NCBI GenBank assembly: GCA_013360875.1
Contig: JABWAU010000002.1
Location: 1 to 64,000 of the forward strand
DNA length: 64,000 nt
Reading direction: 5' to 3'
Origin: Anaerolineales bacterium
GTDB lineage: Bacteria > Chloroflexota > Anaerolineae > Anaerolineales > Villigracilaceae
The notes under the pieces are model-generated. The model worked only from the letters and a program-made list of their open reading frames with translations. It was not told where the DNA came from and ran no database searches. Shown here in pieces: positions 25,181 through 50,082 of the stretch (position 1 is its first letter; every line of letters starts with the position of its first letter). Position numbers and translations under genes: made by a program.

Positions 25181-25203
25181 GAAGAACCTCCAGATTCAAA
25201 TAG

Positions 25204-25605
25204 TTATCCAACCTGCTTCAGCAGTTGGGGAATTTCACGCGCGATATCATCACGTACCTTGCGAAAGTCATCCATATTGTCGGTCAATGCGGGATCAGGG
25301 AAACTGTGATGAGTACGCTTCCCCTTCCCCAGCCAGACGGGACATTCCTCCGCCGCCGAGTCGCAGACGGTGACAACGACATCGAAATCCACCTCCCGAA
25401 ACTCGTCCGCCCGCTTCGACCGACCTTCATGCTGGATTCCAATTTCCCGAAGCGCTTCCAGTGCCTTGGGGTGGACGTAGCCCGCAGGCTTCGTCCCCGC
25501 GCTGACGGCTTGCCACTCCTCCCCCATCCGCGCGTTGACAATTGCTTCCGCCATCTGCGAGCGGCAGGAATTCCCTGTACATAAAAATAAGACTTTGCGC
25601 TTCAT
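25204..25605 (-). CDS. arsC: Arsenate reductase, low-MW phosphatase type
   Basis: VLFLCTGNSCRSQMAEAIVN; CDSAAEECPVW. Confidence 0.95.
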   Translation of the reverse strand: MKRKVLFLCTGNSCRSQMAEAIVNARMGEEWQAVSAGTKPAGYVHPKALEALREIGIQHEGRSKRADEFREVDFDVVVTVCDSAAEECPVWLGKGKRTHHSFPDPALTDNMDDFRKVRDDIAREIPQLLKQVG

Positions 25606-25898
25606 ACAGTTTGTGTCTCCATGATATTTTCAATTTTTCGGCGGATGGCAGGCACGGAAATCTTCCCGCCGTTGACGGTCACTTCACCATTCACCATTAC
25701 CAGCGGCAACTGCGCTCCAGCAGGCATGGATGGACAGTCCGCGTCGAACAAGTCGAAATATTTGACTTCTACATCATCGCCAAAACGCGCCTTCAATTGA
25801 CCCGCTGCCCAGTGAGCCACATCGCGCCAGGTATCTTTCACGCCTTCTGCACAGGCAATCGGTGCGCCGATGATTTGAACGAGAACAGGCTGACTCAT
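25602..25898 (-). CDS. Small thioredoxin-fold/YuzD-like protein in ars operon
   Basis: 98 aa; VQIIGAPIACAEG...VKYFDLFDADC...LPLVMVNGEVTVNGGKISVPAIRRKIE resembles YuzD/DUF1462; ATGA overlaps on both sides. Confidence 0.6.
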   Translation of the reverse strand: MSQPVLVQIIGAPIACAEGVKDTWRDVAHWAAGQLKARFGDDVEVKYFDLFDADCPSMPAGAQLPLVMVNGEVTVNGGKISVPAIRRKIENIMETQTV

Positions 25899-27793
25899 GC
25901 TATTACTTTCTCTCCGTAAATTTGCTCGCCCAATTCTGCCAGCATATCCAGTCCTTTGACCTCACGCGGCAAAAGCGGGATTTGCACCAGCGGCACGCCG
26001 AAGCGTTTGCCAATCTCCGCCAGGTATTTTTCCTGCATGGCGCGGCGCGACTGCACAAAGGGCGTAGTCGCCTGCTCGCTGGGGATGACCATATTAGCGA
26101 CCACCAATCCAGGCTGAACACCGACCGTTCCCAGTTCCTGCGCGGCGCGCCAGGCTTCGAGAATCGGCGTCGCTTCGGGATACATCACAAACGCAAACGT
26201 GCTTTGCGCGGGGTCAGACATCATCTGAATCACTTTTCCAAAGCGCTGTTTGGCAACGTCATCGGCGGCGGTCGCATCCACCGAAGCGAAGACCTTCACG
26301 TCAATCTGCTTGCTCCAGTCAACGGGCAATTCCAGCAAACGCAGGGTGTGACCCGTCGGCGCGGTATCGAAGACCACCGCCTGCCATTCGTCTTGTGAAG
26401 CATATTCAATAAATTTATCAAACGCCGCCATCTCTTCGGTGCAGGGCGAGTTGAGTTCCTCTTCCATCATCTTGATCGCCGACTCGGGGCGTCCGCGTTT
26501 GCGCGCGTCATTAAGAATGCGCGCCTTGTAGGTTTCCGCGGCGGCTTTCGGGTCAATCTTCACCGCCCAGAGATTCGGCTGCCCGCTCACTTCAGCAACC
26601 TCATCGCCGACGGGCGTATCCAGCACTTCGCCCAAATGCGCGGCGGGGTCGGTCGTCAACAGCAGAGTCTTATATCCCTGCCGCGCCAGCCAGACCGCCG
26701 TCACGCACGACGCCACTGTCTTGCCGACGCCGCCCTTGCCCGCGAAGAAAACCGTCCGCCGATGACCGTTTGGAGAAAGCCGCGCCCGCACCTCGTCGAG
26801 GGATGAAGCGAAAGCCGCGTTCTGCAATTGGACTTCCGCCGCTTCATCCGACCCCGAGGCGGGTTCGCCGTCGAAGAAAATTTTCCCCACCTGACGCAGT
26901 CTCGCCGCGCCCTTGATTTCATCCGCCAGCAGAATCATGCGCTGTTTGGAATACGTGAACTCGCGCTCGATTTGCTCCAGATAACGCGCCTGCATTTCGG
27001 CTCGCGCCGCAAAGAGCGGATTCCCCGCGCCAGCAGGCGGGATGATGCCGTTGACAATCAGGCGGAAGTTGTGGATGTCGAGTTTGCTCAGTTCGTCAAT
27101 CGCACGGCGGGTTTCTTTGATGGAAATCGCTTCGGGATGGAGGACGAAGACAAATTGCGTTTGCGCGGATTGACGCATGGCGGCAAGGGCGCGCTCGTAT
27201 TTGTGCTTGGCGTCCTGAATCGCGGCGGCGGGACCCAGGCAGGTCTGCCCGCTGCCCGCGCTCGCCGCGTCAATGGACTGACTCCACTCGGCGGGCAGTT
27301 CCAGCAGGCGGATGGTGTGACCCGTCGGCGCGGTATCGAAGATGACAATATCAAAAGCTGTTCCATTGTCCGAAGGCACATCTAAAAAATCAGTAAAGCG
27401 GTCGAAGGCGGCGACTTCCGCCGTGCAGGGACCGCTCATCTGCTCTTCCATTACCTGAACGATTTGCGGTGGGAAGGCGGCGCGGATGGGCGACATGGCG
27501 CGGTCAATGTATTCCTGCGTGGCTTTATCGGGGTCAATTTCCATCGCCGACAGGTTGGGGACGCCCGCAATCGGCATGACCTGATGCCCGATTTCCTGCT
27601 CGAAAACGTCCGCCAAATTGGAGGCTGGGTCGGTGGTGACGATGAGGGTGCGTTTGCCTTCATCCGCATAACGGACGGCGTGCGTGCAAGCCATACTGGT
27701 CTTGCCCACGCCGCCCTTGCCAGAGAAGAAGATAAAGGTAGTCTGATAGTCGGATGGTCGAATAGTCGAATAATCGTTCGGCGATGAAGTCAT
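25895..27793 (-). CDS. arsA: Arsenical pump-driving ATPase, two-domain
   Basis: Two deviant Walker A motifs FSGKGGVGKTSMAC and FAGKGGVGKTVASC; DTAPTGHTLRLLELP twice. Confidence 0.96.
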   Translation of the reverse strand: MTSSPNDYSTIRPSDYQTTFIFFSGKGGVGKTSMACTHAVRYADEGKRTLIVTTDPASNLADVFEQEIGHQVMPIAGVPNLSAMEIDPDKATQEYIDRAMSPIRAAFPPQIVQVMEEQMSGPCTAEVAAFDRFTDFLDVPSDNGTAFDIVIFDTAPTGHTIRLLELPAEWSQSIDAASAGSGQTCLGPAAAIQDAKHKYERALAAMRQSAQTQFVFVLHPEAISIKETRRAIDELSKLDIHNFRLIVNGIIPPAGAGNPLFAARAEMQARYLEQIEREFTYSKQRMILLADEIKGAARLRQVGKIFFDGEPASGSDEAAEVQLQNAAFASSLDEVRARLSPNGHRRTVFFAGKGGVGKTVASCVTAVWLARQGYKTLLLTTDPAAHLGEVLDTPVGDEVAEVSGQPNLWAVKIDPKAAAETYKARILNDARKRGRPESAIKMMEEELNSPCTEEMAAFDKFIEYASQDEWQAVVFDTAPTGHTLRLLELPVDWSKQIDVKVFASVDATAADDVAKQRFGKVIQMMSDPAQSTFAFVMYPEATPILEAWRAAQELGTVGVQPGLVVANMVIPSEQATTPFVQSRRAMQEKYLAEIGKRFGVPLVQIPLLPREVKGLDMLAELGEQIYGEKVIA

Positions 27794-28152
27794 AAGGTGT
27801 TTGCTCCATTGAGCGCGTTGCGGATTTCATCCAGCGTTGGATACGCGCCAACCTTGATGACCTTGCCGCGCACAACAATAATTGGCAGAGCCTCCATTTG
27901 TCTCTCACGTACCAGTTTCATCACTTCAGCATTTCCCAGAAAGGCGTTGGGGTGACTGGTCATCTGATAGCGTTCCACGCGCAGGTTGTCGCGTTGGAGC
28001 GCCAGGATCATCTCATTGACATCCAGCAAAGTTTGATCGAGCGTTGGTCCGCACAAGCCAGTCGGACAACACATGGGCGGATCGAAGAATTCCACATCCA
28101 CAGGAGCAACGGAGGTCGGCAGGGTATTTAGCAGGGGAATGATGTCGGGCAT
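27790..28152 (-). CDS. arsD: Arsenite efflux metallochaperone ArsD
   Basis: VEFFDPPMCCPTGLCGPTLDQTLLDVNEMI; CC...C ArsD signature. Confidence 0.93.
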   Translation of the reverse strand: MPDIIPLLNTLPTSVAPVDVEFFDPPMCCPTGLCGPTLDQTLLDVNEMILALQRDNLRVERYQMTSHPNAFLGNAEVMKLVRERQMEALPIIVVRGKVIKVGAYPTLDEIRNALNGANTL

Positions 28153-28165
28153 TTCGTTTGTTTCC

Positions 28166-28588
28166 TCACTTCTCCGTAACATTAATATCGGTTAGAGAAA
28201 CCAATGCTTGCGGACCGCATTTGGGCTGACGCGGCTGGATGCGCTTCGGGTCGAAGAACGCGCCAAAGGCGGAATTCAATTCCTCCAATGCGGCGCGGTT
28301 GACCGAGTAGTACACCCAGCGCGAGTCAACTGCGTCGCGTTCCACATCCACCAATCCCACCGCGCGCAACTTGCTCAAATGATGCGAAATCAGGTTGGGC
28401 GGCATGTGCAGGGCGTCGCCAAGTTCGCAGTTGCACTGCACGCCTTCCATTAAAAGATTGAAAATGAGCAGGCGCTTCGGCTCGGCAAGCACCTTGAGGC
28501 GCTCAGACAGCAGTTCAAGGTTGACAGGAGTGGGTTTGATTTCATTTGAAATATAGTTCAACATATGTTGAATTATATTGCCACTCAT
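28166..28588 (-). CDS. arsR: ArsR family metalloregulator (start codon uncertain)
   Basis: LAEPKRLLIFNLLMEGVQCNCELGDALHMPPNLISHHLSKLRAVGLVDVERDAVDSRWVYYSVN. Confidence 0.9.
   Translation of the reverse strand: MSGNIIQHMLNYISNEIKPTPVNLELLSERLKVLAEPKRLLIFNLLMEGVQCNCELGDALHMPPNLISHHLSKLRAVGLVDVERDAVDSRWVYYSVNRAALEELNSAFGAFFDPKRIQPRQPKCGPQALVSLTDINVTEK
28551..28578. promoter_or_regulatory. Probable ArsR operator (28-bp inverted repeat)
   Basis: ATATAgTTCAACAT|ATGTTGAAtTATAT; 13 of 14 base pairs self-complementary; at the 5' end of arsR. Confidence 0.75.
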
Positions 28589-28698
28589 GCCATAGGTCAA
28601 TGAAAGATATGCAAGTTCCAAGGTGCATTTATCAAGCTGCAACAAGGTAGAGTTATTCCCTTTTAGAATAGGTTCTGAAAAATTTTCGAATTACGTAT

Positions 28699-28742: not shown

Positions 28743-28786
28743 ATGCATAGTCCAAATCGGATCATTTGACGAAAGGAGAATGCAAT

Positions 28787-29971
28787 ATGAGAAAGTATCT
28801 GCCCGCTTTGTTCGTTGCTGTAGGTCTCTTGGTGTTGATGGCTGCCTGTCAGCCTGCCACGCCAGCGGAACCCCAAACCGTCCAAGTTGAAGTAACGCGA
28901 GTTGTGGAGGTTACCAAGGAAGTGCCGGTTGAAAAAATCGTCGAGGTGACTCCGGCACCAGCATGGGAAATTGCCAACCAGAATCTGGCCACCTCGCTTC
29001 ATCACACCACACAGGGGATGCGCTATTATTACCAAAAGGAGCAGGGCGGCTTTGAAACCTTGACTGGCGTCTCGTATGAGGATTTGGGATGCAAGAACTG
29101 CCATGTGCCTGTGGAAAACGGTCAGGCAAAATGCGACACCTGTCACATCACCGAGGCAGTTGACGCGCCTCCGCAATTCAAATGCACGGGCTGTCACGGG
29201 CGCCAAAACTTTGAGATCGTGGCAAAGCGCCCGGATGGCACCAAAGGCATCAACGATGTACACTATGCCAAGGGTATGCAGTGCATCAATTGCCATTCTG
29301 ACGAGGCGGTTCATGGGGATGGCATGGCGTACAACTCACTACTGGAAAGCCCTGCTGCGTCCAAATGCACCGATTGCCATCAGACCACTGAAAAGAAGGA
29401 ATGGGCAGACATGCAGGCGCATCAGGTACATGCTGAGAACATGGACTGCGCCGCTTGCCATGTACAACAGGTCAATTCCTGCTTCAATTGCCACTTCGAT
29501 ACGGAAGTCAACGAAAAGTTTAAGATCGAGTATCGCAAGTACTATGATTGGAAATTCCTGATGCTGAACGACGAAGGCAAGATCACTACGGCCACGATCA
29601 TGCCGATGGTCTATCAGGATGACAAATCCTTTGCAGTGCTGGCGCCCTATTACGGACATTCCATCCAACGCCCGAATCCCGAGACGGTTTGCAACGACTG
29701 TCACAAGAATGCCAATGTAGCCGCTTATAATGAGACCGGAAAAATCCAAATTTCCAAATGGAACGAAGGCACCAACTCGCTTGACTTTGCCACGGGCGTT
29801 ATCCCCGTCCCGCCTGATTACGATATAGCCTTCATCATTGACTTTGTCACCCGCGATGGGACGGCATGGAACGAGCAAAAGAACAACTGGAAGTTTATGG
29901 AGACCGGTCCCGATATGTGGCAGATCCTGTTCGGCAAGCCACTGGTAAAGATGCCCACGCAGTTCCCATAG
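28787..29971 (+). CDS. Octaheme c-type cytochrome lipoprotein
   Basis: Lipobox LMAACQP; eight CXXCH motifs (CKNCH, CDTCH, CTGCH, CINCH, CTDCH, CAACH, CFNCH, CNDCH); SD GAAAGGAG. Confidence 0.92.
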   Translation: MRKYLPALFVAVGLLVLMAACQPATPAEPQTVQVEVTRVVEVTKEVPVEKIVEVTPAPAWEIANQNLATSLHHTTQGMRYYYQKEQGGFETLTGVSYEDLGCKNCHVPVENGQAKCDTCHITEAVDAPPQFKCTGCHGRQNFEIVAKRPDGTKGINDVHYAKGMQCINCHSDEAVHGDGMAYNSLLESPAASKCTDCHQTTEKKEWADMQAHQVHAENMDCAACHVQQVNSCFNCHFDTEVNEKFKIEYRKYYDWKFLMLNDEGKITTATIMPMVYQDDKSFAVLAPYYGHSIQRPNPETVCNDCHKNANVAAYNETGKIQISKWNEGTNSLDFATGVIPVPPDYDIAFIIDFVTRDGTAWNEQKNNWKFMETGPDMWQILFGKPLVKMPTQFP

Positions 29972-31273: not shown

Positions 31274-31609
31274 ATGAAACCATACCTTCCAAAAGAAATC
31301 CAAATATCGGCAGAACATCAGGCGGCATTTTTTCGGGTGTTGGGAAACGCACAGCGGGTAATGATCCTTTGGCTTATTGCAGAGCAGGCACGAACCGTTA
31401 ATGAAATTGCATTGGCGATTGGGGCTACCCAGACAAGCGTGGGGCATCATCTCCGCATTTTGGAATTCAATCATCTGGTGGAGATTCGAAGAGAGCACAA
31501 CAACGTCTACTATCACCTCGCCGACAATGAAATCACCCGGGATTGCCTGGTTATCAAGTCCAAACCCAAGGAAATGTTGATGGAAATCAACTTAGTCGAA
31601 AACATCTAA
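31274..31609 (+). CDS. ArsR-type winged-helix regulator
   Basis: FFRVLGNAQRVMILWLIAEQARTVNEIALAIGATQTSVGHHLRILEFNHLVEIRREHNNVYYHL. Confidence 0.85.
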   Translation: MKPYLPKEIQISAEHQAAFFRVLGNAQRVMILWLIAEQARTVNEIALAIGATQTSVGHHLRILEFNHLVEIRREHNNVYYHLADNEITRDCLVIKSKPKEMLMEINLVENI

Positions 31610-31627
31610 TTCATAAAGGAGATAAAG

Positions 31628-31885
31628 ATGGAAGCAACAATTGATCTTAATACCGTAAAGGCAGCCAAAGTCGTGGACGCGCGTGCCATGTCCTGCCCGG
31701 GTCCCTTACTGGAGGCAAAGAAAGCCATCGGCGCCGTCAAAGTCGGTGAAGTGCTGGAAATCTGGTCTGGCGACCCGAACACACGCAGCAACCTTGACCA
31801 GTGGTGCAAGAAACTGGGGCATGATTTCATGGGCTACATCGAGACTGGCGGCTATGACCGCTTGTTCATCCTGCGGAAGAAGTGA
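31628..31885 (+). CDS. TusA family sulfurtransferase
   Basis: VVDARAMSCPGPLLEAKKAIGAVKVGEVLEI with CPGP motif. Confidence 0.92.
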   Translation: MEATIDLNTVKAAKVVDARAMSCPGPLLEAKKAIGAVKVGEVLEIWSGDPNTRSNLDQWCKKLGHDFMGYIETGGYDRLFILRKK

Positions 31886-31896
31886 GCAACCGCGCC

Positions 31897-31931
31897 GCGA
31901 CACATCGTCCCCGCATGGGGATTCATGTCGC
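31897..31931. repeat. Palindromic element P8 (GCGACAcATcgTCCC type)
   Basis: GCGACACATCGTCCCCGCATGGGGATTCATGTCGC; followed by GCGAGATAGATCTCGC hairpin; close relative at 50049..50082. Confidence 0.6.
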
Positions 31932-32008
31932 CCGTTGCGAGATAGATCTCGCGGCACAACAAACAATCCATTCTCGAATTCGGCGTTTTGCTGAAAGAGA
32001 GGAGACCC

Positions 32009-32455
32009 ATGACAACCGAAACACCACAGAAAGGCAAAATCCTGCTCCTTGCCACCCTGTCTGGCGGCTACCGCGGCGCGGACATGGTCGGGCAGGGACA
32101 CATGGATTACCCACCCAACACTTACATCCTGCCCGTGATGAGTTCGGCGATTTTTCCGCCCAAGTTCTACATTGACGCCTTCGAGAAGGGCTTCGATGCC
32201 ATCACGGTCATGTACAGCGGCACGGACAGCCCCTACAAGGGCGAATCGGAGAAAACGGCGGAAATCATCAACGAGACCTATGAGAAGATGAAAGAACTCA
32301 ACCTCGATTTACGCCGCCTGCGGCTAGCCGCCATCTGTACCGTATGCGTGCGCCCGTTTCTTGAAGAAGTCCAGCGCGCCGAATCGCTGCTGGAGGAAAT
32401 CGGGCCCCTGCCGCGCCCGTTGGCTAAACAAGGAGTTGCCGCCAATGTCAACTAA
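32009..32455 (+). CDS. MvhD-like hydrogenase iron-sulfur subunit/Hdr-associated protein
   Basis: YPPNTYILPVMSSAIFPPKFYIDAFEKGFDAITVMYSGTDSPYKGESEKTAEIINETYEKMKELNLDLRRLRLAAICTVC. Confidence 0.7.
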   Translation: MTTETPQKGKILLLATLSGGYRGADMVGQGHMDYPPNTYILPVMSSAIFPPKFYIDAFEKGFDAITVMYSGTDSPYKGESEKTAEIINETYEKMKELNLDLRRLRLAAICTVCVRPFLEEVQRAESLLEEIGPLPRPLAKQGVAANVN

Positions 32456-33791
32456 CCAAATCAAAGTGGATGCGCTGGTGGTCGGCGGCGGGATCTCCGG
32501 GATGCAGACCGCGCTCGACCTGGGCGACCAGGGCTACAAGGTCGCGGTCGTGGAACGCAAATCCAGTATCGGCGGGAAGATGATTGACCTGAGCAAGGTC
32601 TTTCCCACGCTCGACTGCTGTTCCTGCATCACCACCCCCAAGATGTCTGCCACGGCGCATCACGACAACATCACCCTGCTGACCTACAGCGAAATCGAGT
32701 CCATCAACCGCGACGGGAATGGTTTCAAGGTGCAGGCCACCAAGAAACCGCGTTACGTGCGCGAAGACGATTGTACGGGCTGCCGCTCCTGCGAGTTGGT
32801 CTGCCCGCTCGAAGTCTCGGAAGACGAGCATGAGTTCGGGCGCACCTCGCACCGCGTGGTGTACGTGCCGTTCAGCACGGCTGTCCCGCAAAAGGCACTC
32901 GTGGACCTCGATCACTGCCTGTTCTGCGGCAAGTGCATCCAGGCTTGCCCCTCGGATGCGATTGATTTCACCCAACAACCCGAACCCGTCGAAATTGAAA
33001 CCCGCAGTATCGTGCTGGCGACTGGCTTCGAGACAACGCCGATTAACGCCAAAAAGGAATACGGTGCGGGAAAACTGCGCAACGTCATCAGCGGCATGAT
33101 GATGGAACGCCTGCTCGCTCCCACCGGACCTTATGGCCGCGTCCTGCGACCCTCGGACGGGAAGATGCCCGCCTCGATTGCCTACGTCCAGTGCGCGGGT
33201 TCGCGTGACCAGACGCTGGGCGTGCCGTATTGCTCGCGCGTCTGCTGCATGTACGCCATCAAGCAAGCCATGCTGCTTTCGGGCGCGCTACCCTTGGCGG
33301 AAATTACCATCTATTACATGGACATCCGCACCTTCGGCAAAGGCTACGAACAGTTCTACCAAAACGCCAAAGCGATGGGCGTGGAATTCCTGAAAGGCAA
33401 GGTGGCGCGCATTACCGAGGATGAAAACCAAAATCCCATCGTGCGTGTGGAATTGATTGACGAATTCGGCAAGACCCGCGTCACCGAGCGGCAACATGAC
33501 CTGGTGGTGCTTTCAGTCGGCTTGCTGCCAGGCGGAAATCCGCAGCCCAAATTTGGCGTGCCAGTGGGCGAGGACGGCTTCGTTCAAGTTCCCGATTACA
33601 ACGTGTTCCCTGCCGTGACCTCGCAACCAGGCATTTTCGTGACCGGCGCGGCGGCGGGACCGATGGACATTGTAGACAGCATCATGATGGCTGGCGCCGC
33701 GGCGTCGTCCGCCGCGTCTTATCTGGAAGCCGGTAACGGGTCGAGGAAAGAAGCGCAACGTCAGCCCGAGAGGAGCGTGGAGTATGCCTGA
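32445..33791 (+). CDS. HdrA/QmoA-like FAD and 4Fe-4S protein
   Basis: VVGGGISGMQTALDLGDQGYKVAVVER; FPTLDCCSCITTPKM; CTGCRSCELVCP and CLFCGKCIQACP. Confidence 0.88.
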   Translation: MSTNQIKVDALVVGGGISGMQTALDLGDQGYKVAVVERKSSIGGKMIDLSKVFPTLDCCSCITTPKMSATAHHDNITLLTYSEIESINRDGNGFKVQATKKPRYVREDDCTGCRSCELVCPLEVSEDEHEFGRTSHRVVYVPFSTAVPQKALVDLDHCLFCGKCIQACPSDAIDFTQQPEPVEIETRSIVLATGFETTPINAKKEYGAGKLRNVISGMMMERLLAPTGPYGRVLRPSDGKMPASIAYVQCAGSRDQTLGVPYCSRVCCMYAIKQAMLLSGALPLAEITIYYMDIRTFGKGYEQFYQNAKAMGVEFLKGKVARITEDENQNPIVRVELIDEFGKTRVTERQHDLVVLSVGLLPGGNPQPKFGVPVGEDGFVQVPDYNVFPAVTSQPGIFVTGAAAGPMDIVDSIMMAGAAASSAASYLEAGNGSRKEAQRQPERSVEYA

Positions 33792-35850
33792 AGAAATCGT
33801 CAACACACAGGCGCAAAATCCGAAAGAGGACGAGCCGCGTATTGGCGTATATGTCTGCAACTGCGGCGGAAACATCGGCGACGTGGTGAAATGCGAACAT
33901 GTCGCCAGAACGTTGGAAAGATTACCCAATGTGGTTGTCTCGCGTGACAACATGTTCATGTGCTCCGACCCCGGGCAAAAGATGATTGCGGACGATATCA
34001 AGGAGAAGGGTGTCAACCGCGTGGTGATTGGCGCTTGCTCCATTTTCCTGCACGAGCAGACCTTCCGCCGCACGCTGGAACGCGCCGGGCTGAATCCCTA
34101 TTTGTATTATCACATCGGCTTGCGCGAGCAGGTCAGTTGGGTGCATCACGGCACGCCGAAGGAAGCCACCGAAAAATCCATCCGCATGATGGCGGCTGGG
34201 ATTGCCAAGGCGCGCAACATGAAACCGCTGGAACCGGTGCGCCTGCCTGCTCATCGTCAGGCGTTGGTGATCGGCGGCGGCGTGGCAGGACTGCGCTCCG
34301 CGCTGGATCTGGCGCGGCGCGGGTTGAAGGTGACGCTCGTCGAAAAGAGTCACTACCTGGGCGGACACATGGCGCAGTGGGAGCGCGTCTTCCCGACCAA
34401 CGAAGAGGCGCGTCCGCTGCTCAAACGGCTGATTGACCAGGTGTTGGCAGAGCCGAATATCACCATCCACACGGGCGCGGAAGTGATCGGCGCGAAAGGG
34501 TACGTGGGCAATTACAACGTGACCATTCGACAAACTCCACGCGGCGTGCGCGAGACTTTCCCCAACGAACAGGAAGCCATTGACGTTTGTCCCATCAAGC
34601 GGCGGAAGCGGTTTGATTTTGGTCTCTCGACCAGCAAAGCGATTTACCGAACGTACACAGGCTGTGTACCCGAAAGCCTGGTGATTGATTGGGAGACCTG
34701 CACCAAATGCGGCGAGTGCGTCAAGGTTGCGCCGGAGGGAATGATTAACCTGGATGAAGAAGCCCAGGAATTTACAGTGGATGTCGGCGCGGTGGTACTT
34801 GCCACGGGCTTCCAGCCTTATGAACCGTTCTACGGCGAGATGGGTTGGAAGGAATTCCCCGAGGTCATCACCCTGCCGCAACTGCACCGCCTGCTGGATG
34901 ACGAAGGTCCCACTCAGGGAAAGTTCTGGTGGAACGGTCATCCCGTGAAAAACGTGGCGATTATCCATTGCGTGGGAAGCCGCCAGGTGGAGGGCGTGCA
35001 TCGCGCCCAACCCGATGGCAACGTCAACAACTACTGCTCGCGGGTGTGTTGCACTGCGTCGTTGAGCATGGCTTCGCTCATCCGCCAGAAAGCGCCCGAC
35101 GCGAAAATTTATGAAGTCTTCGAGGATATTCGCGCCTACGGACGCGGTCACGAGGATTATTACACCCGCGCCAGCAAGAACAACGTCACCTTCCTGAGAT
35201 ATTTCGCGGAGGAAATCCCCGAAGTGCGGCGCGCGGACGAGAAGGCGGAACATCCGCTGCTGGTCAAAGTCCGCGACCATCTGACCTGGGGCGAGGAAAT
35301 CGAAATCCCTGTGGATTTGGTGGTGCTGTCAGTGGGCATGATGCCCAACCCTGTGCAAGACCTGATGGAAATCTTCAAGGTCACGCCAGGCAGCGACCGC
35401 TTCCTGCTGGAAGTCCACCCGAAACTGCGCCCGGTCGAGACGGCGGTCAATGGAGTCGTCCTGGCTGGAACGGCGCAGGGTCCGATGAACATTCAGGAGA
35501 GTTGCGCGGCGGCGTCTGCGGCGGCGTCGAAAGTGTCGGCGTTGATCGAGCAGGCGAAGGTCGAGTTGGAGCCGTATGTCGCCCGCGTGGACCCGGACAA
35601 ATGTCAGGGAAGCGGCGAGTGCGTCAAGGTTTGTCCGCAGGAGGAAGCCATCGAACTCAAGACGTTCAGCGAGAACGGGAATACATTCCAGCGCGCGGTT
35701 GTCACGCCCGCCAACTGTAACGGCTGCGGCGTGTGCGTGAGCGCCTGCCCGAACCGCGCCATTGACGTGCAAGGCTGGCGGCTGGACGAGTATGAAGCGA
35801 TGGTTAGCGCCATTGCCGCCGATATTCCTGCATGGGAAGGTGCCGCATGA
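33784..35850 (+). CDS. HdrA/QmoB-like FAD and 4Fe-4S protein
   Basis: GVYVCNCGGNIGDVV; VIGGGVAGLRSALDLARRGLKVTLVEKSHYLGGHMAQ; C-terminal CQGSGECVKVCP and CNGCGVCVSACP. Confidence 0.88.
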   Translation: MPEEIVNTQAQNPKEDEPRIGVYVCNCGGNIGDVVKCEHVARTLERLPNVVVSRDNMFMCSDPGQKMIADDIKEKGVNRVVIGACSIFLHEQTFRRTLERAGLNPYLYYHIGLREQVSWVHHGTPKEATEKSIRMMAAGIAKARNMKPLEPVRLPAHRQALVIGGGVAGLRSALDLARRGLKVTLVEKSHYLGGHMAQWERVFPTNEEARPLLKRLIDQVLAEPNITIHTGAEVIGAKGYVGNYNVTIRQTPRGVRETFPNEQEAIDVCPIKRRKRFDFGLSTSKAIYRTYTGCVPESLVIDWETCTKCGECVKVAPEGMINLDEEAQEFTVDVGAVVLATGFQPYEPFYGEMGWKEFPEVITLPQLHRLLDDEGPTQGKFWWNGHPVKNVAIIHCVGSRQVEGVHRAQPDGNVNNYCSRVCCTASLSMASLIRQKAPDAKIYEVFEDIRAYGRGHEDYYTRASKNNVTFLRYFAEEIPEVRRADEKAEHPLLVKVRDHLTWGEEIEIPVDLVVLSVGMMPNPVQDLMEIFKVTPGSDRFLLEVHPKLRPVETAVNGVVLAGTAQGPMNIQESCAAASAAASKVSALIEQAKVELEPYVARVDPDKCQGSGECVKVCPQEEAIELKTFSENGNTFQRAVVTPANCNGCGVCVSACPNRAIDVQGWRLDEYEAMVSAIAADIPAWEGAA

Positions 35851-36149
35851 CAACCAATGAAGAAAAGAAAAAACGAACTGAAATGCTGGTGGAGATGCGC
35901 AAGGAGCGCCGCGAGACGGTGCAAAGAGCGCAGGAACTTTTGAAGGCTCAACAGTCCGCCCGCAAGGCGCTGGAACGCGCCCTGACGGGAGGTCCGCACA
36001 GCGTGCCGCAACTGGCGCAAGCCGTGAACATGCCCGCGCATGAAGCGCTGTGGCACATCGCGGCGATGAAGAAATACGGCATCGTGGCGGAGGCTGGCAC
36101 CGACGAAAGCGGCGATTACTATCTCTACCGCCTGGTGAAGGAGGCGTAA
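35847..36149 (+). CDS. Small winged-helix-like protein inside Qmo/Hdr-like operon
   Basis: 100 aa; ATGA overlap with the upstream gene; GGPHSVPQLAQAVNMPAHEALWHIAAMKKYGIVAEAGTDESGDYYLYRL. Confidence 0.65.
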   Translation: MTTNEEKKKRTEMLVEMRKERRETVQRAQELLKAQQSARKALERALTGGPHSVPQLAQAVNMPAHEALWHIAAMKKYGIVAEAGTDESGDYYLYRLVKEA

Positions 36150-36150
36150 C

Positions 36151-37323
36151 ATGGCTGAGCGCGTCAACCCTTATTTTCTAAAGGAACTAAAAAAATACGG
36201 GGATGTCAGAATCGAAGAATGTTTCAACTGCGGCAACTGCTCAGCCATCTGCCCGCTTTCCACCGAAGAAGACAACTTCCCCCGCCGCATGAATCGCTTT
36301 GCCCAACTGGGATTGCGCGACCGTTTGCTGGCTAGCAAGGAACTGTGGCTATGCTACTACTGCGGCGAATGTACCAAGACTTGCCCGCGTCAGGCTGACC
36401 CTGGCGAGTATATGGCATCTGCGCGGCGCTATGCGATTGCCTCGTATGACCCGACAGGTCTGGCAAAGTTACTTTACACTTCGCCTGTTCTGAGCGTCAT
36501 CTTTCTGCTCGTGCTGGCTGTTGCGATTGGATTGTTCTTCTTCCAGGCCAGCGCGCCGATGGATTTGCAGACCCTGCGCCTGTTCGAGTTCATCCCCTCG
36601 GCATTGATTCACAACGCGGGCATCATCGCGGGCGTCGTCATCGTGCTGGCGGCGCTGGTTGGGATGGTCTCGATGTGGCGGCGCACCTTTCAGGCGCTGG
36701 GCTATCCCAAAGGCACGCGCCTCGACTGGTGGGGCGCCATCTGGAAAGCCTTTGGCGTGGAAGTGTTGGGACAGTTGCGCTATCGTAAGGATTGCGAGTC
36801 GTCAGCGGTCAACAAACCCTGGTATGCCCAGAAATGGTTCATCCATGCCTCCATGCTATGGGGTTTCCTGGGTCTCTTCGTGGCGACCGCGCTGAACTAT
36901 TTGCTGGAACTGTTGAGCGTCAAGGCAACGGGGACGTGGGTGCCACTCTGGTATCCCATCCGCCTGCTGGGGACGGTTTCGGGTCTCTTCCTGCTCTACG
37001 GGACGAGCCTGGCGCTCCTGCGCCGTTTCCGCAAGGACGATACATCCTATGAAAAATCCACCTTTTCGGATTGGACTTTCCTGGCGCTGATGTGGCTGGC
37101 GGGCGTGACGGGCTTCCTGCTGGAGATTGCCGTCTATCTGCCGCCCTTTGCCTGGAGTTACTGGATGCTGCTGGCGCACCTCATCGTAGTCGGCGAGCTG
37201 CTCCTGCTGGCGCCGTTCAGCAAATTTGCCCATGCGGTGTATCGCAGCATCGCGCTCTATCTCTGGACGCTCAAGCCGCTGCCAGAAAGCGAACAGGCCT
37301 CTGCGCCTGCCGCCGCCGATTAA
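36151..37323 (+). CDS. HdrC-type 4Fe-4S domain fused to membrane cytochrome b-like domain (QmoC-like)
   Basis: CFNCGNCSAICPLS and CYYCGECTKTCPRQADPGEYMASARRYAIASYDPTGLAK, then multiple TM helices. Confidence 0.85.
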   Translation: MAERVNPYFLKELKKYGDVRIEECFNCGNCSAICPLSTEEDNFPRRMNRFAQLGLRDRLLASKELWLCYYCGECTKTCPRQADPGEYMASARRYAIASYDPTGLAKLLYTSPVLSVIFLLVLAVAIGLFFFQASAPMDLQTLRLFEFIPSALIHNAGIIAGVVIVLAALVGMVSMWRRTFQALGYPKGTRLDWWGAIWKAFGVEVLGQLRYRKDCESSAVNKPWYAQKWFIHASMLWGFLGLFVATALNYLLELLSVKATGTWVPLWYPIRLLGTVSGLFLLYGTSLALLRRFRKDDTSYEKSTFSDWTFLALMWLAGVTGFLLEIAVYLPPFAWSYWMLLAHLIVVGELLLLAPFSKFAHAVYRSIALYLWTLKPLPESEQASAPAAAD

Positions 37324-37394
37324 GAACTTCCATGCCCGCTGACCCTGCTCAGCGTCGGCGGGCATAACACAAAAACTTTCAAGGAGAAAAAATC

Positions 37395-37763
37395 ATGAGC
37401 GATGAAATGCCCAAAACTGTCATCATGTGCAACCACGGCGACTCGGACAGCGTCATGGCTGCCCTGATCATGGGCGCGGCCGCGGCCGCCACTGGCGACC
37501 AGGTACTGATGTTCTTCCAGCCTGGCGCGGCGAAGATGCTGGTGAAGGGTGAACTGGAGAAATACAACGGCTTGCCCGGTCTGCCAGACCCGATCTACCT
37601 TTACGATTCCATCGTGACCCTGGATGGCAAGTTCATCCTGTGCGAACTCGGACTTCCCAACAAAGGCATCAAGAAGGAAGACCTGCGCGAAGAAGTCGAA
37701 GTCCGCATGGCGGCAGACTTCCTGCTAATGGCGGAAGGCGCGGCCAAATTCTTCTCGTACTAA
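37395..37763 (+). CDS. DsrE family protein
   Basis: TVIMCNHGDSDSVMAALIMGAAAAATGDQVLMFFQPGAAKML...CELGLPNKGI. Confidence 0.82.
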   Translation: MSDEMPKTVIMCNHGDSDSVMAALIMGAAAAATGDQVLMFFQPGAAKMLVKGELEKYNGLPGLPDPIYLYDSIVTLDGKFILCELGLPNKGIKKEDLREEVEVRMAADFLLMAEGAAKFFSY

Positions 37764-37785
37764 AAAATCATAAGGAGTAAATCCC

Positions 37786-38040
37786 ATGACTGAAGCAACT
37801 CTCACCCCCACCAAAACGATTGACGAACGCGGCAAGATTTGTCCCTACCCCGATGTGGACACGATGACCACGCTTAAGAAGATGAACAAGGGCGAAATCC
37901 TGGAAGTGCTGATTGATTATCCGCTTTCGGTAGAACGCATCCCCCGCAGCGCCGAGAAGAACGGACATAAGGTTCTCAGCGTCAAGCAGGTGGATGGTCC
38001 TGTTCACAGCATCCTCATTGAAGTGCTGGGCAATAAATAG
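37786..38040 (+). CDS. TusA family sulfurtransferase (second copy)
   Basis: IDERGKICPYPDVDTMTTLKKMNKGEILEVLIDYPLSVERIPRSAEKNGHKV. Confidence 0.9.
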   Translation: MTEATLTPTKTIDERGKICPYPDVDTMTTLKKMNKGEILEVLIDYPLSVERIPRSAEKNGHKVLSVKQVDGPVHSILIEVLGNK

Positions 38041-38098
38041 AAACCATGTGCATGCAAAATAAATTTTGCGGCACAAAAATAAAATCAAGGAGAATGTT

Positions 38099-39166
38099 AT
38101 GACCCCCATCGTTTCTGGCTTGCTGGTAGGCGTCCTGTTCGGATTTGCCCTGCAACGCGGCCGCTTCTGCATGAACTCCGCCTTCCGTGACATCATTCTG
38201 GGGCGGGACTTCACACTGTTCAAAGCCCTGGCTGTTGCCATCCTGGTTTCAATGATCGGCTTTTCGATCATGGCAATGACGGGCATCATTACGCTTGCGC
38301 CCAAGCCATTCATGTGGGGTGCGAATATCGTCGGCGGCTTGCTCTTCGGCGTCGGCATGGTACTGGCTGGCGGATGCGCCAGCGGGATCACCTATCGCAC
38401 CGGCGAAGGCATGATGGGCGCAGTGACAGCTGTGCTGGGGTTTGGGATTGCCGGTATGATGACGGCTACGGGTATATTGAATCCACTGCTCAAGTCGCTT
38501 CAAAACACAAAGGTCATGACCGCCGATGACAAGCCCCTGACCCTGGCAAACATCGCCGGGTTGGACTTGAAAATCGTAATGCTTGTAGTGGCGGTCATTA
38601 TCATCGTCATTTGGGCTTTGCTTGCTATGCGGAACAAATCCGCCGCGCCAAGTTATGGAACCAAGGCAAAATCTCTGGGTGAAGCAGTCTTCAAGAAGGG
38701 CTGGAACTGGTTCCCCACTGGTATTGTTGTTGGCTTGATTGGCATGTTGGCGTTTCCGCTTTCCGCGGCGGCAGGACGCAACTATCCGCTCGGTATCACC
38801 GGCGGCTGGATCAACATCTTCCAATCGCTGATCAAGTGGCAAACACTGGTCGAGGATAAGTTGAAAGTCACAGCGCTCAACTGGGAAGGCGCGGAAGTGA
38901 TCGGAATTGTGTTGGGTGCGCTGGTCGCGGCATGGATCGCCGGCGAGTTTGCCATCCGCGCGCCGGAACCGAAGATCCTTCTGCAAACCCTTGTGGGCGG
39001 ACTCTTGATGGGCTTTGGCGCGGTTGTTTCCGGCGGATGCAACATCGGTCATATTTTGAGCGGCGTTCCGCAGCTCTCGATCGGTTCCATCGTTGGCGGT
39101 TTTTCTATCGTTGCCGGCGGCTGGACGATGGCGTATTTCATGTTCATCCGTCCGATGAATGCCTGA
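38099..39166 (+). CDS. YeeE/YedE family sulfur (or selenium) transporter
   Basis: FALQRGRFCMNSAFRDIILGRD; GVGMVLAGGCASGITYRTGEG; GAVVSGGCNIGHILSGVPQLSIGSIVGG. Confidence 0.93.
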   Translation: MTPIVSGLLVGVLFGFALQRGRFCMNSAFRDIILGRDFTLFKALAVAILVSMIGFSIMAMTGIITLAPKPFMWGANIVGGLLFGVGMVLAGGCASGITYRTGEGMMGAVTAVLGFGIAGMMTATGILNPLLKSLQNTKVMTADDKPLTLANIAGLDLKIVMLVVAVIIIVIWALLAMRNKSAAPSYGTKAKSLGEAVFKKGWNWFPTGIVVGLIGMLAFPLSAAAGRNYPLGITGGWINIFQSLIKWQTLVEDKLKVTALNWEGAEVIGIVLGALVAAWIAGEFAIRAPEPKILLQTLVGGLLMGFGAVVSGGCNIGHILSGVPQLSIGSIVGGFSIVAGGWTMAYFMFIRPMNA

Positions 39167-39188: not shown

Positions 39189-39226
39189 AAAAAACTGGAG
39201 CCGCAATACAAACGGCTCCAGTTTTT
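39189..39226 (+). terminator. Rho-independent terminator after yeeE-like gene
   Basis: AAAAACTGGAGCCG-caatacaaa-CGGCTCCAGTTTTT, 14-bp stem. Confidence 0.88.
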
Positions 39227-39252
39227 GTAGGACAAAATGAATTTTGTCCTAC
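39227..39252. repeat. Palindromic element P2
   Basis: GTAGGACAAAATgaATTTTGTCCTAC; perfect 12-bp arms. Confidence 0.88.
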
Positions 39253-40172
39253 GCTTCTGGCAAGGCGAGAACATCCTCGTTTTCAGGTGCATGGATGAAC
39301 GCCCAGAACGCATCCCGCACCAGATTGGGATGTGACAACTTGCGGCGGGCGATACAAATCCGTCGTTGCAAGTTCAATCCTTCGACAGGAACATCCACAA
39401 CACAGCCCCACACCCTGGCGTAAGCCGAAGCCATGCGCGAGACAAAAGACACGCCCAGGTTGCCTGCCACAGCGAGAACAATGGCTTCGGCATTCCCCAC
39501 TTCCATCAAGACGTTCATTTCATCGAATGAAATATCGTACTTCGCCAATTCCGCCTGCAGGGTACGGCGCGTGCCAGAAGATGGCTCGCGCAAAATGATC
39601 GGCACATCAAGCAATTCTGCCGGTTCGATGGAGTCGCGTTTGGATAGCGGATGTTTCTCTGGAACTATAAACGATATGTAATCGGTAAAGAAATATTGAC
39701 ACTCCAAATCGTTTTCCCTAACCTCGCTGCTGACCACACCCAGGTCGGCATCCTCGGACAGCAAACGTGAGGTCATCTCCTGGCGGACACAGGGTTGGAT
39801 GAAAATTTGGACGCCTGGATAGCGCTGACGAAAACGCGCCGCCAGATGAGGCAGAATGTATTTTCCCGCAGTCGTCGTACATGCAATCCGCAACTGACCG
39901 ACCACCGAATCCTGCATGGCTTGCATCATTTCCTGCACCTCGGTGGACTGACGCACAATCTTGCGCGCCCAGGGCAGCAGGGTCATGCCCGCGTTGGTGA
40001 TTCGTAATTGTGCGCCTTCACGCACGAATAATTGCACATTCAATTCGGCTTCGAGATTCTGGATGTGTTTGCTGACCGTCGGCTGACTGAGATGCAGGCG
40101 CTTTGCCGCCTCGGAGCAACTTTGGGTGGCCGCGACTTGAATGAAAACGTTAAGTCGGTTGATGTCGAGCAT
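39249..40172 (-). CDS. LysR family transcriptional regulator (paralog of 30078..30995)
   Basis: MLDINRLNVFIQVAATQSCSEAAKRLHLSQPTVSKHIQNLEAELNVQLFVREG. Confidence 0.94.
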   Translation of the reverse strand: MLDINRLNVFIQVAATQSCSEAAKRLHLSQPTVSKHIQNLEAELNVQLFVREGAQLRITNAGMTLLPWARKIVRQSTEVQEMMQAMQDSVVGQLRIACTTTAGKYILPHLAARFRQRYPGVQIFIQPCVRQEMTSRLLSEDADLGVVSSEVRENDLECQYFFTDYISFIVPEKHPLSKRDSIEPAELLDVPIILREPSSGTRRTLQAELAKYDISFDEMNVLMEVGNAEAIVLAVAGNLGVSFVSRMASAYARVWGCVVDVPVEGLNLQRRICIARRKLSHPNLVRDAFWAFIHAPENEDVLALPEA

Positions 40173-42447: not shown

Positions 42448-42858
42448 TTACGGATTCTTTGTCAACGCTTCAACCTGACGTTCAGCCTGATTCAGGTCTA
42501 GCGGCGACTCATCGCTCACGCCTTCATCCTGCTTCCAAACGACCTGACCCGCGGCGTCCACCAACACGAGAGCGGGCGCGCGAAAGACATGGAATTGCTC
42601 TGCCAGATCGCGGCGGTGGTCGAAGTCCACGCGGTGAAGCGGCAGGGGCGAGACCCAATCCGCCAGTTGCGCTTCGGCGGCGCGGATGACGATCATCTGG
42701 CACTCGCACCCTTTTGAGAGCGTGAAGAAGACCAGGGCGGGCTGTCCGTTTAACGGCAGCGGCTCACGGGCGGCGAACCAGCCCTCGGCCACGGCTTTCA
42801 GCCCCAGGGTCAGGGTGAGCGAGGCGAGGAAGAGAATCCAGAGGATACGCCGAGTCAT
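42448..42858 (-). CDS. Membrane-anchored thioredoxin-like protein
   Basis: N-terminal TM; ALVFFTLSKGCECQMIVIRAAEAQL...VDFDHRRDLAEQFHVFRAPALVLVDAAGQVVWKQDEG. Confidence 0.7.
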   Translation of the reverse strand: MTRRILWILFLASLTLTLGLKAVAEGWFAAREPLPLNGQPALVFFTLSKGCECQMIVIRAAEAQLADWVSPLPLHRVDFDHRRDLAEQFHVFRAPALVLVDAAGQVVWKQDEGVSDESPLDLNQAERQVEALTKNP

Positions 42859-43529
42859 GCAATCCACACAAAGTACAAGCCGACAGCGATCACCACGACT
42901 CCCGCGACTTTCTCCAGCGCGTCATTCCAGCGACCGAATGCCTGCAACCGTTTTAATATGCCCGTGAACGTCCCTGCGAGCACAATGGGCACGCCGCGCC
43001 CGAGGGCATAGACAAACAATAACGCTGCACCGTAGAGAAGCGCGCCCTTCGCCATCACATAGGTCAGGATGGCGGCGAGGACAGGTGTGGCGCACTGCGA
43101 AGCTACCAAGCCAGAGACGAGACCCAGCAGTAACGCGCCAGGCGCGCCCTTGAGCGTGACGCGCTCGCGCAATCCGCCCAGCCAGAGCGGGGTTTCGAGA
43201 TGGATGAGACCGAGCATATTCAGCCCGATGACGAAGCACACAAAGGCAACGAGGTAGTACCACCAGGTTGTGGACGCGCCTACAAGCCCGCCGATGAGCG
43301 CGGCAAACACGCCAAGCAGCATGAAGGTTAGGGCGAGACCGATGGCGAACATGAGCGAGAGGAGGAAAGCGCGGGCGCGCGGCAGGTCGCGTGAACCGCC
43401 CACGTAGCCAATCACCAGCGGAATCATCGCCACGTTGCAGGGTCCAATGCTGGTGAGGACGCCGCCGAGGAAGACCAGCGCGAAGGCGAGGGGCGAGATA
43501 TTTTGGATGAGGGTAAAGTCAAGGTTCAT
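42855..43529 (-). CDS. ccdA: CcdA/DsbD-like thiol-disulfide transporter
   Basis: LAFALVFLGGVLTSIGPCNVAMIPLVIGYVGG...GLVSGLVASQCATPVLAAIL; paired Cys in TM helices. Confidence 0.92.
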   Translation of the reverse strand: MNLDFTLIQNISPLAFALVFLGGVLTSIGPCNVAMIPLVIGYVGGSRDLPRARAFLLSLMFAIGLALTFMLLGVFAALIGGLVGASTTWWYYLVAFVCFVIGLNMLGLIHLETPLWLGGLRERVTLKGAPGALLLGLVSGLVASQCATPVLAAILTYVMAKGALLYGAALLFVYALGRGVPIVLAGTFTGILKRLQAFGRWNDALEKVAGVVVIAVGLYFVWIA

Positions 43530-43592
43530 GTTTTTTTGAAGCGTAGCGCAAGTCTCTGACTTGCGGCTGCAATTCGCAAATTGAAATTTGCG

Positions 43593-44039
43593 TTACTGTG
43601 CCAGTTGACTCAATGTCTGGCGGAATTGGTCGGCTTGCATGACACCGACGAAGACCTGGCGCGTTCCTTGCGCGTCATAAAAGACCAGGGTGGGAATGGA
43701 TTGCAGATTTTCGCGGCGTAGAATGTTCGTGTTGTTCTGGTCATAGACGTCCACGTCAATCAGCGTCACCGAGTCTTGAAATTCGGGATAGACTTCTGCC
43801 ACCGTTCCCATCATTTCCTTGCAGGGAATACAATCCAGCGAGTGCAGGAAGACGAAGGTGGGGTGTTTGGCGGCAAGCGCCTCATCAAGTTGAGATTCGA
43901 GGGTAGAGGCGGTGGATACGCCGCTGCCTTTTGCCAGAAATACAGCAATCAACAGCAAGGCAATCCCCGCCAAAATCAAGAGAGTGGGCGGATTCTTGGC
44001 GGGACGGTATTTGCGTTTGGCGCGGTTGGATTTAGGCAT
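43593..44039 (-). CDS. Membrane-anchored thioredoxin family protein
   Basis: FVFLHSLDCIPCKEMMGTVAEVYPEF...IPTLVFYDAQGTRQVFVGV. Confidence 0.88.
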   Translation of the reverse strand: MPKSNRAKRKYRPAKNPPTLLILAGIALLLIAVFLAKGSGVSTASTLESQLDEALAAKHPTFVFLHSLDCIPCKEMMGTVAEVYPEFQDSVTLIDVDVYDQNNTNILRRENLQSIPTLVFYDAQGTRQVFVGVMQADQFRQTLSQLAQ

Positions 44040-45460
44040 TATTCTTCCTCATCTGGAATCGCAAACTGAAGAACGGCGGGCGGTGTGCCAAGCATAAGCA
44101 AGAGGGTTACGATGACCGCCGAAGTGAGACACCAGATACAAACGGCTCGAATGACGAATGGTTCAAGATAGGTGAGATAAAGCGAAAAGATTACGGCGAA
44201 GAATGCCATGCCAAAGAATCCGATGGCAGCAGGCTTTTCAAGTTTAGGAACGAATCTCCGCGCAATCCAAGAAGCAAGTAAAGCAACATAACCCAACAAG
44301 CCAAGAACACCAATTGGTAGAATGTCAAATAATTTGGCATAGCGGCTTTGCTGAACGGTATTGCAATCGCCGACGGGTCCGCAGATGGCTTCAACGGATT
44401 GGGTCTCTACGTATGAGAGGTAGGCAGCAACCCCAATGCCAATCACGATCAGGGCCGGGATGAGCCAATCCGTCCAGGCTGGCAGGGAAAAGGTCTTTCC
44501 CAGGGTAAAGGCAAGCAGGCTGTAAACAAGCGCAATGACCATAAGAGCTATGACAACGATGGCCAGGATAAAGCCATTGGATTGCGTATGTGCGGGGGCA
44601 GCCTCAGCGGGGAGGGGAGCCTCGGTAGCGGCAGGCAGGTCGAGGGTCGGGGAAGAGGCGGCTGCGTCGCTGCGCGGGGGGTGGGATGGGAAGTCCACGC
44701 CGCCCCGGGCGAGGTAAAACTTGATCAGCGCGGGCAGTTGGGCGGGAATTTCCTCGACCATCAGCACATGTTCGCCGATGATCAGCAGCGGCAGGTCCAC
44801 CTGGTCGCTGGACAAACCGTAGCCGGCCGCCACCTGGTAGAGATACGCCACATCTGCTGAGGTGACCACGTCAATGGTCTGGACTTGCAACTGCTCACCG
44901 TATTGTTGATAGAGTGGGCCTAGCGCCTGGGCAGTAATCAACTGACAATCCTGACAATCAAGGGTGGTGAACAGGCTGACGCGCACAACCGCGCCGCCAG
45001 GTATGGAGGCGACCTGCGGCACAGGGGTCGGTTGTAGGAGAAACTCATCCAGGCGGGGGATGGCCGGCCAGTCCACGCCACTCTTTGCCAAGTGAGACTC
45101 GATCAGGCCGGGCAATTCGTCGGGAATCTGACGCGCACCAATCAGGACGCGGTCGCCGATGACCAGGAACGGCACACCGACTTGTTCGCGCGGGATACCG
45201 TAGGAGGCGGCAACTTCATAGAGACGATTGACATCCTCCACGTCAACCACTTCGACCAGCAGGATTTCCAGTTGCGCTCCATATTTTCCCTGCAATGGCG
45301 GCAGGACATTCTCCAGCACTTCGTGGCAGTGTGGGCAACCGTTCATCCAGAACATCACAGCGTGAACGACGGGCGGGGCTTCTGCCTGAGCTGAAGCGGA
45401 GGAAAAAGTCAGGGCGATGGCGATCAGGATGATGGTCAGAAAAGAGGCGAGACGTCTCAA
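44039..45460 (-). CDS. Two thioredoxin/glutaredoxin-like domains fused to VKOR domain
   Basis: MFWMNGCPHCHEVLENVLP; LFTTLDCQDCQLITAQALG; VKOR part CGPVGDCNTVQQSRYAKLFDILPIGVLGLLGY...CIWCLTSAV. Confidence 0.88.
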   Translation of the reverse strand: MRRLASFLTIILIAIALTFSSASAQAEAPPVVHAVMFWMNGCPHCHEVLENVLPPLQGKYGAQLEILLVEVVDVEDVNRLYEVAASYGIPREQVGVPFLVIGDRVLIGARQIPDELPGLIESHLAKSGVDWPAIPRLDEFLLQPTPVPQVASIPGGAVVRVSLFTTLDCQDCQLITAQALGPLYQQYGEQLQVQTIDVVTSADVAYLYQVAAGYGLSSDQVDLPLLIIGEHVLMVEEIPAQLPALIKFYLARGGVDFPSHPPRSDAAASSPTLDLPAATEAPLPAEAAPAHTQSNGFILAIVVIALMVIALVYSLLAFTLGKTFSLPAWTDWLIPALIVIGIGVAAYLSYVETQSVEAICGPVGDCNTVQQSRYAKLFDILPIGVLGLLGYVALLASWIARRFVPKLEKPAAIGFFGMAFFAVIFSLYLTYLEPFVIRAVCIWCLTSAVIVTLLLMLGTPPAVLQFAIPDEEE

Positions 45461-50029: not shown

Positions 50030-50048
50030 CTCCGATGTTTGAAGTACC

Positions 50049-50082
50049 GAGACACATCGTCCCAGAAAGGGATTTATGTCGC
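50049..50082. repeat. Palindromic element P9 (relative of P8)
   Basis: GAGACACATCGTCCCAGAAAGGGATTTATGTCGC. Confidence 0.6.

Follow-up and report, generated by a model that had tools for sequence, protein, structure and literature searches.

What does a QmoABC-like membrane complex do in a bacterium in which aprA finds no match, and what does it have to do with the TusA- and DsrE-type sulfur carriers encoded beside it? The window (the whole stretch of 64,000 nucleotides analysed here) belongs to a genome of 3.99 Mb that is 96% complete. In a first-pass annotation its operon had been read as QmoABC/Hdr-like, and it was proposed that the complex couples the quinone pool to sulfane sulfur, or selenium, bound to TusA and DsrE. 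The gene names and order given there hold as statements of homology, since all ten genes were confirmed: ArsR, TusA1, an MvhD-like subunit, QmoA, QmoB, a winged-helix protein (wHTH), QmoC, DsrE, TusA2 and YeeE, followed by the terminator (z = -6.5; Table 1). From MvhD through QmoC, neighbouring genes overlap or touch. Starts were refined from the sequence for the MvhD-like gene (ATG at 32009, with AGGAG upstream), QmoA (32445), wHTH (35847) and YeeE (38099). The terminator was overlooked by a pattern scan with a loop limit of 8, the actual loop being 9 nt, and a pattern scan for promoters gave nothing exceeding chance. A plasmid origin was rejected, there being no close plasmid match.

Table 1. 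Features of the operon and its downstream border, in window coordinates.
Feature	Position	Strand	Evidence
ArsR/SmtB-family regulator	31274..31609	+	NF033788 65.3 bits, cut-off 55 exceeded
TusA1 sulfur carrier, CPGP motif Cys23	31628..31885	+	PF01206 67.4 bits
MvhD-like subunit, free-standing	32009..32455	+	PF02662 57.1 bits
QmoA-like (HdrA core)	32445..33791	+	HdrA2 model positions 130-564
QmoB-like (HdrA with N-terminal domain and C-terminal ferredoxin)	33784..35850	+	HdrA2 model positions 1-642
Small winged-helix protein (wHTH)	35847..36149	+	PF12840 28.2 bits
QmoC-like (HdrC-type plus membrane cytochrome b part)	36151..37323	+	NF038018 219.8 bits, cut-off 300 not reached
DsrE-family sulfurtransferase, ILCELG Cys	37395..37763	+	PF13686 35.1 bits
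TusA2, YedF-like TusA, CPYP motif	37786..38040	+	PF01206 73.6 bits; NF008242 68.5 bits, cut-off 79
YeeE/YedE (TsuA-like) sulfur-compound transporter	38099..39166	+	PF04143 299.5 bits; NF052577 326 bits, cut-off 400
Intrinsic terminator	39190..39226	+	14-bp stem, 9-nt loop, U tail; -22.2 kcal/mol; z = -6.47
Convergent LysR-type regulator	39249..40172	-	NF040786 236 bits, cut-off 250

The operon is a conserved cassette

A scan of the QmoB alignment against 84,980 species genomes gave 79 loci, and by record title these relatives are mainly Anaerolineae (Chloroflexota). The 65 distinct loci with enough flanking sequence were scored with cassette HMMs. They had been fetched via QmoA, QmoB or QmoC, nearly all through QmoB or QmoC alone, and TusA, MvhD and DsrE were never used as queries. 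TusA1, MvhD and QmoA were each found at 64 of the 65 loci, wHTH and QmoC at all 65 and DsrE at 59; ArsR (32), TusA2 (11) and YeeE (10) are less constant members. Because the gene order recurs at 64-65 of 65 loci that were collected without a TusA, MvhD or DsrE query, the arrangement is not due to chance, and the link to TusA and DsrE noticed in the window proves to be deeply conserved. The winged-helix gene, newly recognised as a constant member, sits between QmoB and QmoC, in archaea too. Its AF2 model (pLDDT 93.3) retrieves MarR and ArsR folds in Foldseek (E about 1e-3), and the protein may be a structural subunit.

According to record titles, which mostly belong to MAG contigs so that single assignments may err, the carriers span about 11 bacterial phyla plus Thermoproteota; the titles name Chloroflexota, Tharpellota, Myxococcota, Armatimonadota, Krumholzibacteriota, Verrucomicrobiota, Planctomycetota, Elusimicrobiota, Margulisiibacteriota, Fibrobacterota, Spirochaetota and Thermoproteota. 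A full-length QmoC homologue is found in 13 of 298 genomes of the class, three congeners are without one, and a Tharpella sequence is nested among Chloroflexota in the tree. The distribution is patchy, and horizontal transfer is likely. At one locus QmoA and QmoB are >90% identical to those in the window and QmoC just 38%, identities which indicate that QmoC is swapped between cassettes.

Subunit architecture

The coverage of the HdrA2 model by QmoA and QmoB (Table 1) and by the MvhD-like subunit (positions 641-773) shows that the three proteins are pieces of one HdrA-MvhD architecture in which the flavin core is present twice. The closest PDB relatives of the subunits are methanogen HdrA, HdrC and MvhD; QmoA matches 8rvv_A (E 1.7e-116), and QmoB matches 5odc_A (E 1.5e-152). 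QmoA is without the N-terminal domain and C-terminal ferredoxin of HdrA and keeps the FAD fold. According to the alignments and cysteine table, its FAD-proximal Cys is retained, as are the two inserted 4Fe-4S motifs. In QmoB those inserted clusters are degenerate, but the N-terminal set of Cys and the ferredoxin at the C-terminus are present. The cofactor residues of the two proteins are thereby complementary. QmoB had been credited with two C-terminal 4Fe-4S motifs. The ferredoxin is indeed kept, but its first motif is degenerate in the window: Ser610 occupies the second Cys position, at which ~21% of the family has Cys. QmoC carries two HdrC-type 4Fe-4S motifs, all eight Fe-S cysteines of which are invariant, and haem-type histidines (H232 and H361 in all sequences, H343 in 93%). 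In composition, then, QmoA, QmoB and a membrane QmoC with two 4Fe-4S motifs and cytochrome b correspond to QmoABC.

The MvhD-like part is, as had been annotated, a separate gene. Its AF2 model (pLDDT 89.5) superposes on MvhD of HdrABC-MvhAGD (5odc_D, E 3.7e-11). The methanogen MvhD set CNWC..VMC..GCxxxDC, whose cysteines we take to be cluster ligands from established knowledge and their conservation, is absent from the protein in the window and partly kept elsewhere; an archaeal hydrogenase-linked MvhD has CNWC, VMC and GCHxGDC. As judged from the alignment, most [2Fe-2S] ligands are gone from this subunit. What does not vary is a C-terminal CxxC (79 of 79), which the archaeal rows of the alignment show as well. 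This motif is likely a docking or thiol-redox site, although it could alternatively be structural.

HdrABC-MvhAGD and the hydrogenase-linked QmoC-HdrA-HdrA-MvhD operons share the HdrA and MvhD folds with the complex, whereas the locus has neither HdrB nor hydrogenase genes, and its MvhD bears the CxxC and few of the [2Fe-2S] ligands.

Sulfur carriers, transporter and regulators

The catalytic Cys of TusA1 is present in 76 of 76 homologues, and the single Cys of DsrE is near-invariant (99% of 89 homologues). YeeE has three conserved Cys in 14 of 14 sequences and a Sulf_transp domain; it falls short of the TsuA equivalog cut-off and scores far higher with TsuA (326 bits) than with seleno_YedE (46 bits). 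Members of the YeeE family import thiosulfate or sulfane sulfur (PMC11582611). YeeE, TusA and a DsrE-family gene also occur together in the YTD cluster (YeeE-TusA-DsrE, now dsrEFH type II; PMC13293266), but the version in the window lies inside a Qmo-like operon, in a genome without DsrAB.

A Cys pair is common in the ArsR family (81% and 87%), of which the protein in the window keeps half (F16, C87 in the trimmed alignment); with one of the two cysteines retained, no BigR-type persulfide sensor is claimed. LysR genes flank the cassette on both sides and resemble NF040786 (236 and 216 bits, below the cut-off of 250). The convergent one is often retained downstream of the cassette, and 33 homologues were gathered from cassette loci. 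A literature search for the NCBIfam name 'TsoR' yielded no paper.

Phylogeny and the relation to type I and type II Qmo

Trees of both HdrA paralogues and of QmoC were computed. QmoA and QmoB of the TusA-linked cassettes each form one clade (100/100 support, two trees). Both clades lie towards HdrA, separated from canonical Qmo by a long branch with full support, and canonical QmoC forms one clade apart from the TusA-type QmoC. Within 148 genomes of one phylum, labelled Desulfobacterota-like from gene content, the NF038018 scores of full-length QmoC matches are bimodal (364-530 versus 181-213 bits). Canonical loci in this phylum read aprBA-qmoABC with a longer QmoB, and the TusA cassette accounts for part of the low-scoring class. 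A type I QmoC over the cut-off is co-resident in five of six Desulfobacterota-like carriers tested.

Canonical (type I) QmoABC resembles the complex in having two HdrA-type flavoproteins and an HdrC-cytochrome b membrane subunit. However, type I QmoB is 735-792 aa long with extra C-terminal Cys (a fused MvhD-like end), whereas the MvhD-like protein here is a separate gene, and type I operons are without TusA, free MvhD, wHTH and DsrE, all four of which the cassette has. An assignment to type I was rejected on the separate clades, the missing linkage to aprA and a QmoC score short of its cut-off. Of the initial QmoABC/Hdr-like label, what stands is the homology to HdrA-derived QmoA, QmoB and QmoC; what does not is identity with the apr-linked complex. 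On the trees and gene content, the complex is an HdrA-derived assembly distinct from apr-linked QmoABC.

In PMC10504309, a 'type II' QmoABC of Vulcanisaeta and Ammonifex is described in which QmoAB are nearer to HdrA than to canonical QmoAB. Its role is left open there; in that paper and in PMC9872577 type II is taken as the qmoABC of Vulcanisaeta. The QmoA and QmoB studied here are likewise nearer to HdrA, and the V. souniana locus falls inside both of their clades. For this reason the published type II Qmo, and the published V. souniana qmoABC with it, is most likely this cassette. The passages of PMC10504309 on type II Qmo contain no mention of a cassette with TusA, MvhD, winged-helix and DsrE genes, and a literature search of openly accessible main texts gave no description of a TusA-linked Qmo.

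Sulfate-reduction genes in the carriers

Inspection of part of the window turned up no recognisable apr, sat or dsr gene, in line with the first-pass annotation. A full sulfate-reduction set was looked for elsewhere in the genome and is absent: aprA, dsrA and the NIR_SIR family are without a match genome-wide, and there is one sat-family gene. Among carriers outside sulfate-reducer lineages (the window genome and 69 others), aprA was over cut-off in 0 of 70. It was present in all ten sulfate-reducer-type carriers tested (Desulfobacterota-like and Thermoproteales-like). In two one-contig archaeal genomes aprA lies hundreds of kb from the cassette; in one of them, V. souniana, where a DsrE-family gene precedes the cassette, the distance is about 634 kb by record coordinates. 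Where TusA-type cassettes were read from end to end, no aprBA adjoined them. A dsrA over cut-off was found in 3 of 39 carriers and missing in 36. DsrC was over cut-off in just 22 of 50 genomes, including a doubtful 25.5-bit match in the window genome, and was rejected as a required acceptor on this count. As many carriers are incomplete MAGs, single gene absences weigh little and it is the overall pattern that counts.

Proposed function and alternatives

The constant genetic partners of the complex are sulfur carriers with intact catalytic Cys, and its soluble side therefore most likely handles protein-bound sulfane sulfur; the membrane side most likely deals in menaquinone. Coupling of quinone to sulfur borne by TusA and DsrE is thus retained as the best hypothesis. 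On balance the sequence evidence makes it somewhat more probable than not that the operon encodes a type II Qmo complex of Hdr descent which sits in the membrane, specialises in sulfane sulfur bound to proteins, is fed by TusA and DsrE and is coupled to menaquinone. We infer that in the cytoplasm TusA1 and DsrE would carry sulfur as a persulfide or thiosulfonate and hand it to the complex, with TusA2, supplied by the YeeE transporter, as an additional carrier in this organism. QmoA and QmoB would complement each other as the two halves of one HdrA-type Fe-S flavoprotein, and the CxxC of the MvhD-like subunit as the docking or thiol-redox site. Electrons would pass between QmoA/QmoB, the HdrC part of QmoC and cytochrome b, to or from menaquinone. 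Neither an HdrB-type subunit nor a lipoate-binding protein is among the ten genes to provide a site of sulfur chemistry, and the missing HdrB-type subunit is the main gap in this scheme.

For the Apr- and Dsr-free host, the balance tips slightly towards reduction of sulfane sulfur, with sulfide as the product, rather than oxidation. An NrfD-like membrane protein is encoded within about 10 kb of five Anaerolineae loci, two of which also match the TtrA-like enzyme found about 17 kb downstream of the cassette in the window, and these genes fit the reduction of sulfur compounds. In the opposite, sHdr-like direction, TusA/DsrE-bound sulfane sulfur would be oxidised toward sulfite and electrons passed into the quinone pool. 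The HdrA-type core speaks for this, as do the carrier proteins, which are the same as in sHdr systems (PMC11582611; PMC6776052), and the YeeE family members that bring in sulfur for oxidation in H. denitrificans (PMC11582611). Unlike the sHdr-LbpA system, however, the operon has a membrane QmoC and is without HdrB1/B2 and LbpA, no CCG or lipoyl domain being found among the ten products, and Psr/Ttr-like reductase genes lie near some cassettes. Oxidation is accordingly regarded as unlikely, if the strongest of the alternatives.

Another reading makes the complex a true Qmo, with APS reductase receiving its electrons and TusA and DsrE incidental. It would suit the homology of the subunits, the treatment of type II as the Vulcanisaeta qmoABC in the passages cited above and the aprA of the sulfate-reducer-type carriers. 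It is nevertheless improbable given the lack of aprA in the other 70 carriers, the missing aprBA neighbours, the separate phylogeny and the type I QmoC that most of the Desulfobacterota-like carriers tested already have. Because all ten sulfate-reducer-type carriers tested have aprA, a partnership with APS reductase may exist there.

The selenium alternative, in which TusA2/YedF, a YedE-like transporter and LysR would deliver or reduce selenium, draws on the YedF-like TusA2, the likeness of the flanking LysR pair to NF040786 and a selD with an in-frame TGA in the window genome. Against it, selD is over cut-off in 24 of 39 carriers and not in the other 15, the transporter scores as TsuA rather than seleno_YedE, and TusA2 and YeeE are absent from most core cassettes. 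On the selD count selenium was rejected as a general substrate, and the proposal is rated as more improbable still, while a role confined to the TusA2-YeeE subset may be conceivable. TusA of E. coli has roles in tRNA thiolation and molybdenum cofactor synthesis, and that TusA can do such jobs tells somewhat against the main reading; these roles and a nearby XdhC-family gene count in favour of a redox system by which TusA is recharged or regulated, but a membrane quinone complex is out of proportion to such a task and the patchy distribution is unlike that of a housekeeping function, so that this is the least credible reading of all.

Implications for sulfur metabolism

With the near-constant TusA/DsrE linkage in about 11 bacterial phyla plus Thermoproteota, and with 70 aprA-free carriers, the question of the substrate side receives a testable answer, namely sulfane sulfur and not APS. 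A further-reaching proposal from the same sequence comparisons, which we put forward tentatively, is that the name 'type II Qmo' conceals a distinct and widespread respiratory complex, a persulfide:menaquinone oxidoreductase that depends on TusA/DsrE and has an MvhD-like subunit with a CxxC for sulfur docking; the APS reductase partnering ascribed to it in Vulcanisaeta would then be wrongly assigned or secondary. If sulfane sulfur is indeed the substrate, many Anaerolineae and other uncultured organisms without known genes for sulfate or sulfite respiration would gain a dissimilatory sulfur trait, and the finding would caution against the use of qmoABC as a marker of sulfate reduction.

Genes surrounding the cassette

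The cassette has arsenic-type genes on both sides, and these encode low-molecular-weight ArsC-like, Acr3-like, ArsA, ArsD and ArsR proteins together with ArsP-family permeases. Similar arsenic-type neighbours are found at loci L040 and L044 of other genomes, and ArsA/ArsD are among the neighbours at L056. The LysR gene adjoining the multihaem gene resembles the LysR gene downstream of the cassette. The thioredoxin-like, DsbD/CcdA-like and VKOR genes constitute a thiol redox system near the cassette, and homologues of the VKOR-type gene also lie near six other loci. The molybdopterin oxidoreductase is possibly a periplasmic reductase of sulfur or arsenic compounds.

Features of the window flanking the cassette
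Feature	Position	Remarks
Arsenic-type genes	24050-28645 and 48554-53306	
Multihaem c-type lipoprotein-like protein	28766-29971	Cytochrome_C7/c3 domains
Thioredoxin-like, DsbD/CcdA-like and VKOR genes, clustered	42448-45460	
TtrA/PhsA-like molybdopterin oxidoreductase, TAT-exported	56668-59919	TtrA model 471 bits, far under that model's cut-off

Related complexes in other genomes

At genome level, dsrA scored above cut-off in three Chloroflexota carriers (L127, L128 and L129; genomes G298, G302 and G300). Each match contains one TAA inside the matched stretch, which is possibly the end of the gene ahead of dsrB.

In L040, QmoC (8952-10112) displayed 38% identity to that of the window, and QmoA and QmoB of the same cassette are >90% identical to those of the window; QmoC has been swapped here for a different one. 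The loci L173, L174, L176, L177 and L179, from Desulfobacterota-like genomes, carry a third form of Qmo, in which a type-II-like QmoC is combined with canonical-like QmoA and QmoB; in L176 and L179 a flavoprotein-like gene (∼ 565 aa) adjoins qmoA. Finally, L230, L231 and L185 contain [NiFe]-hydrogenase-like genes in one operon with QmoC and HdrA-type genes, with MvhD also present in the archaeal members. These operons represent a hydrogen-linked relative of the cassette complex.
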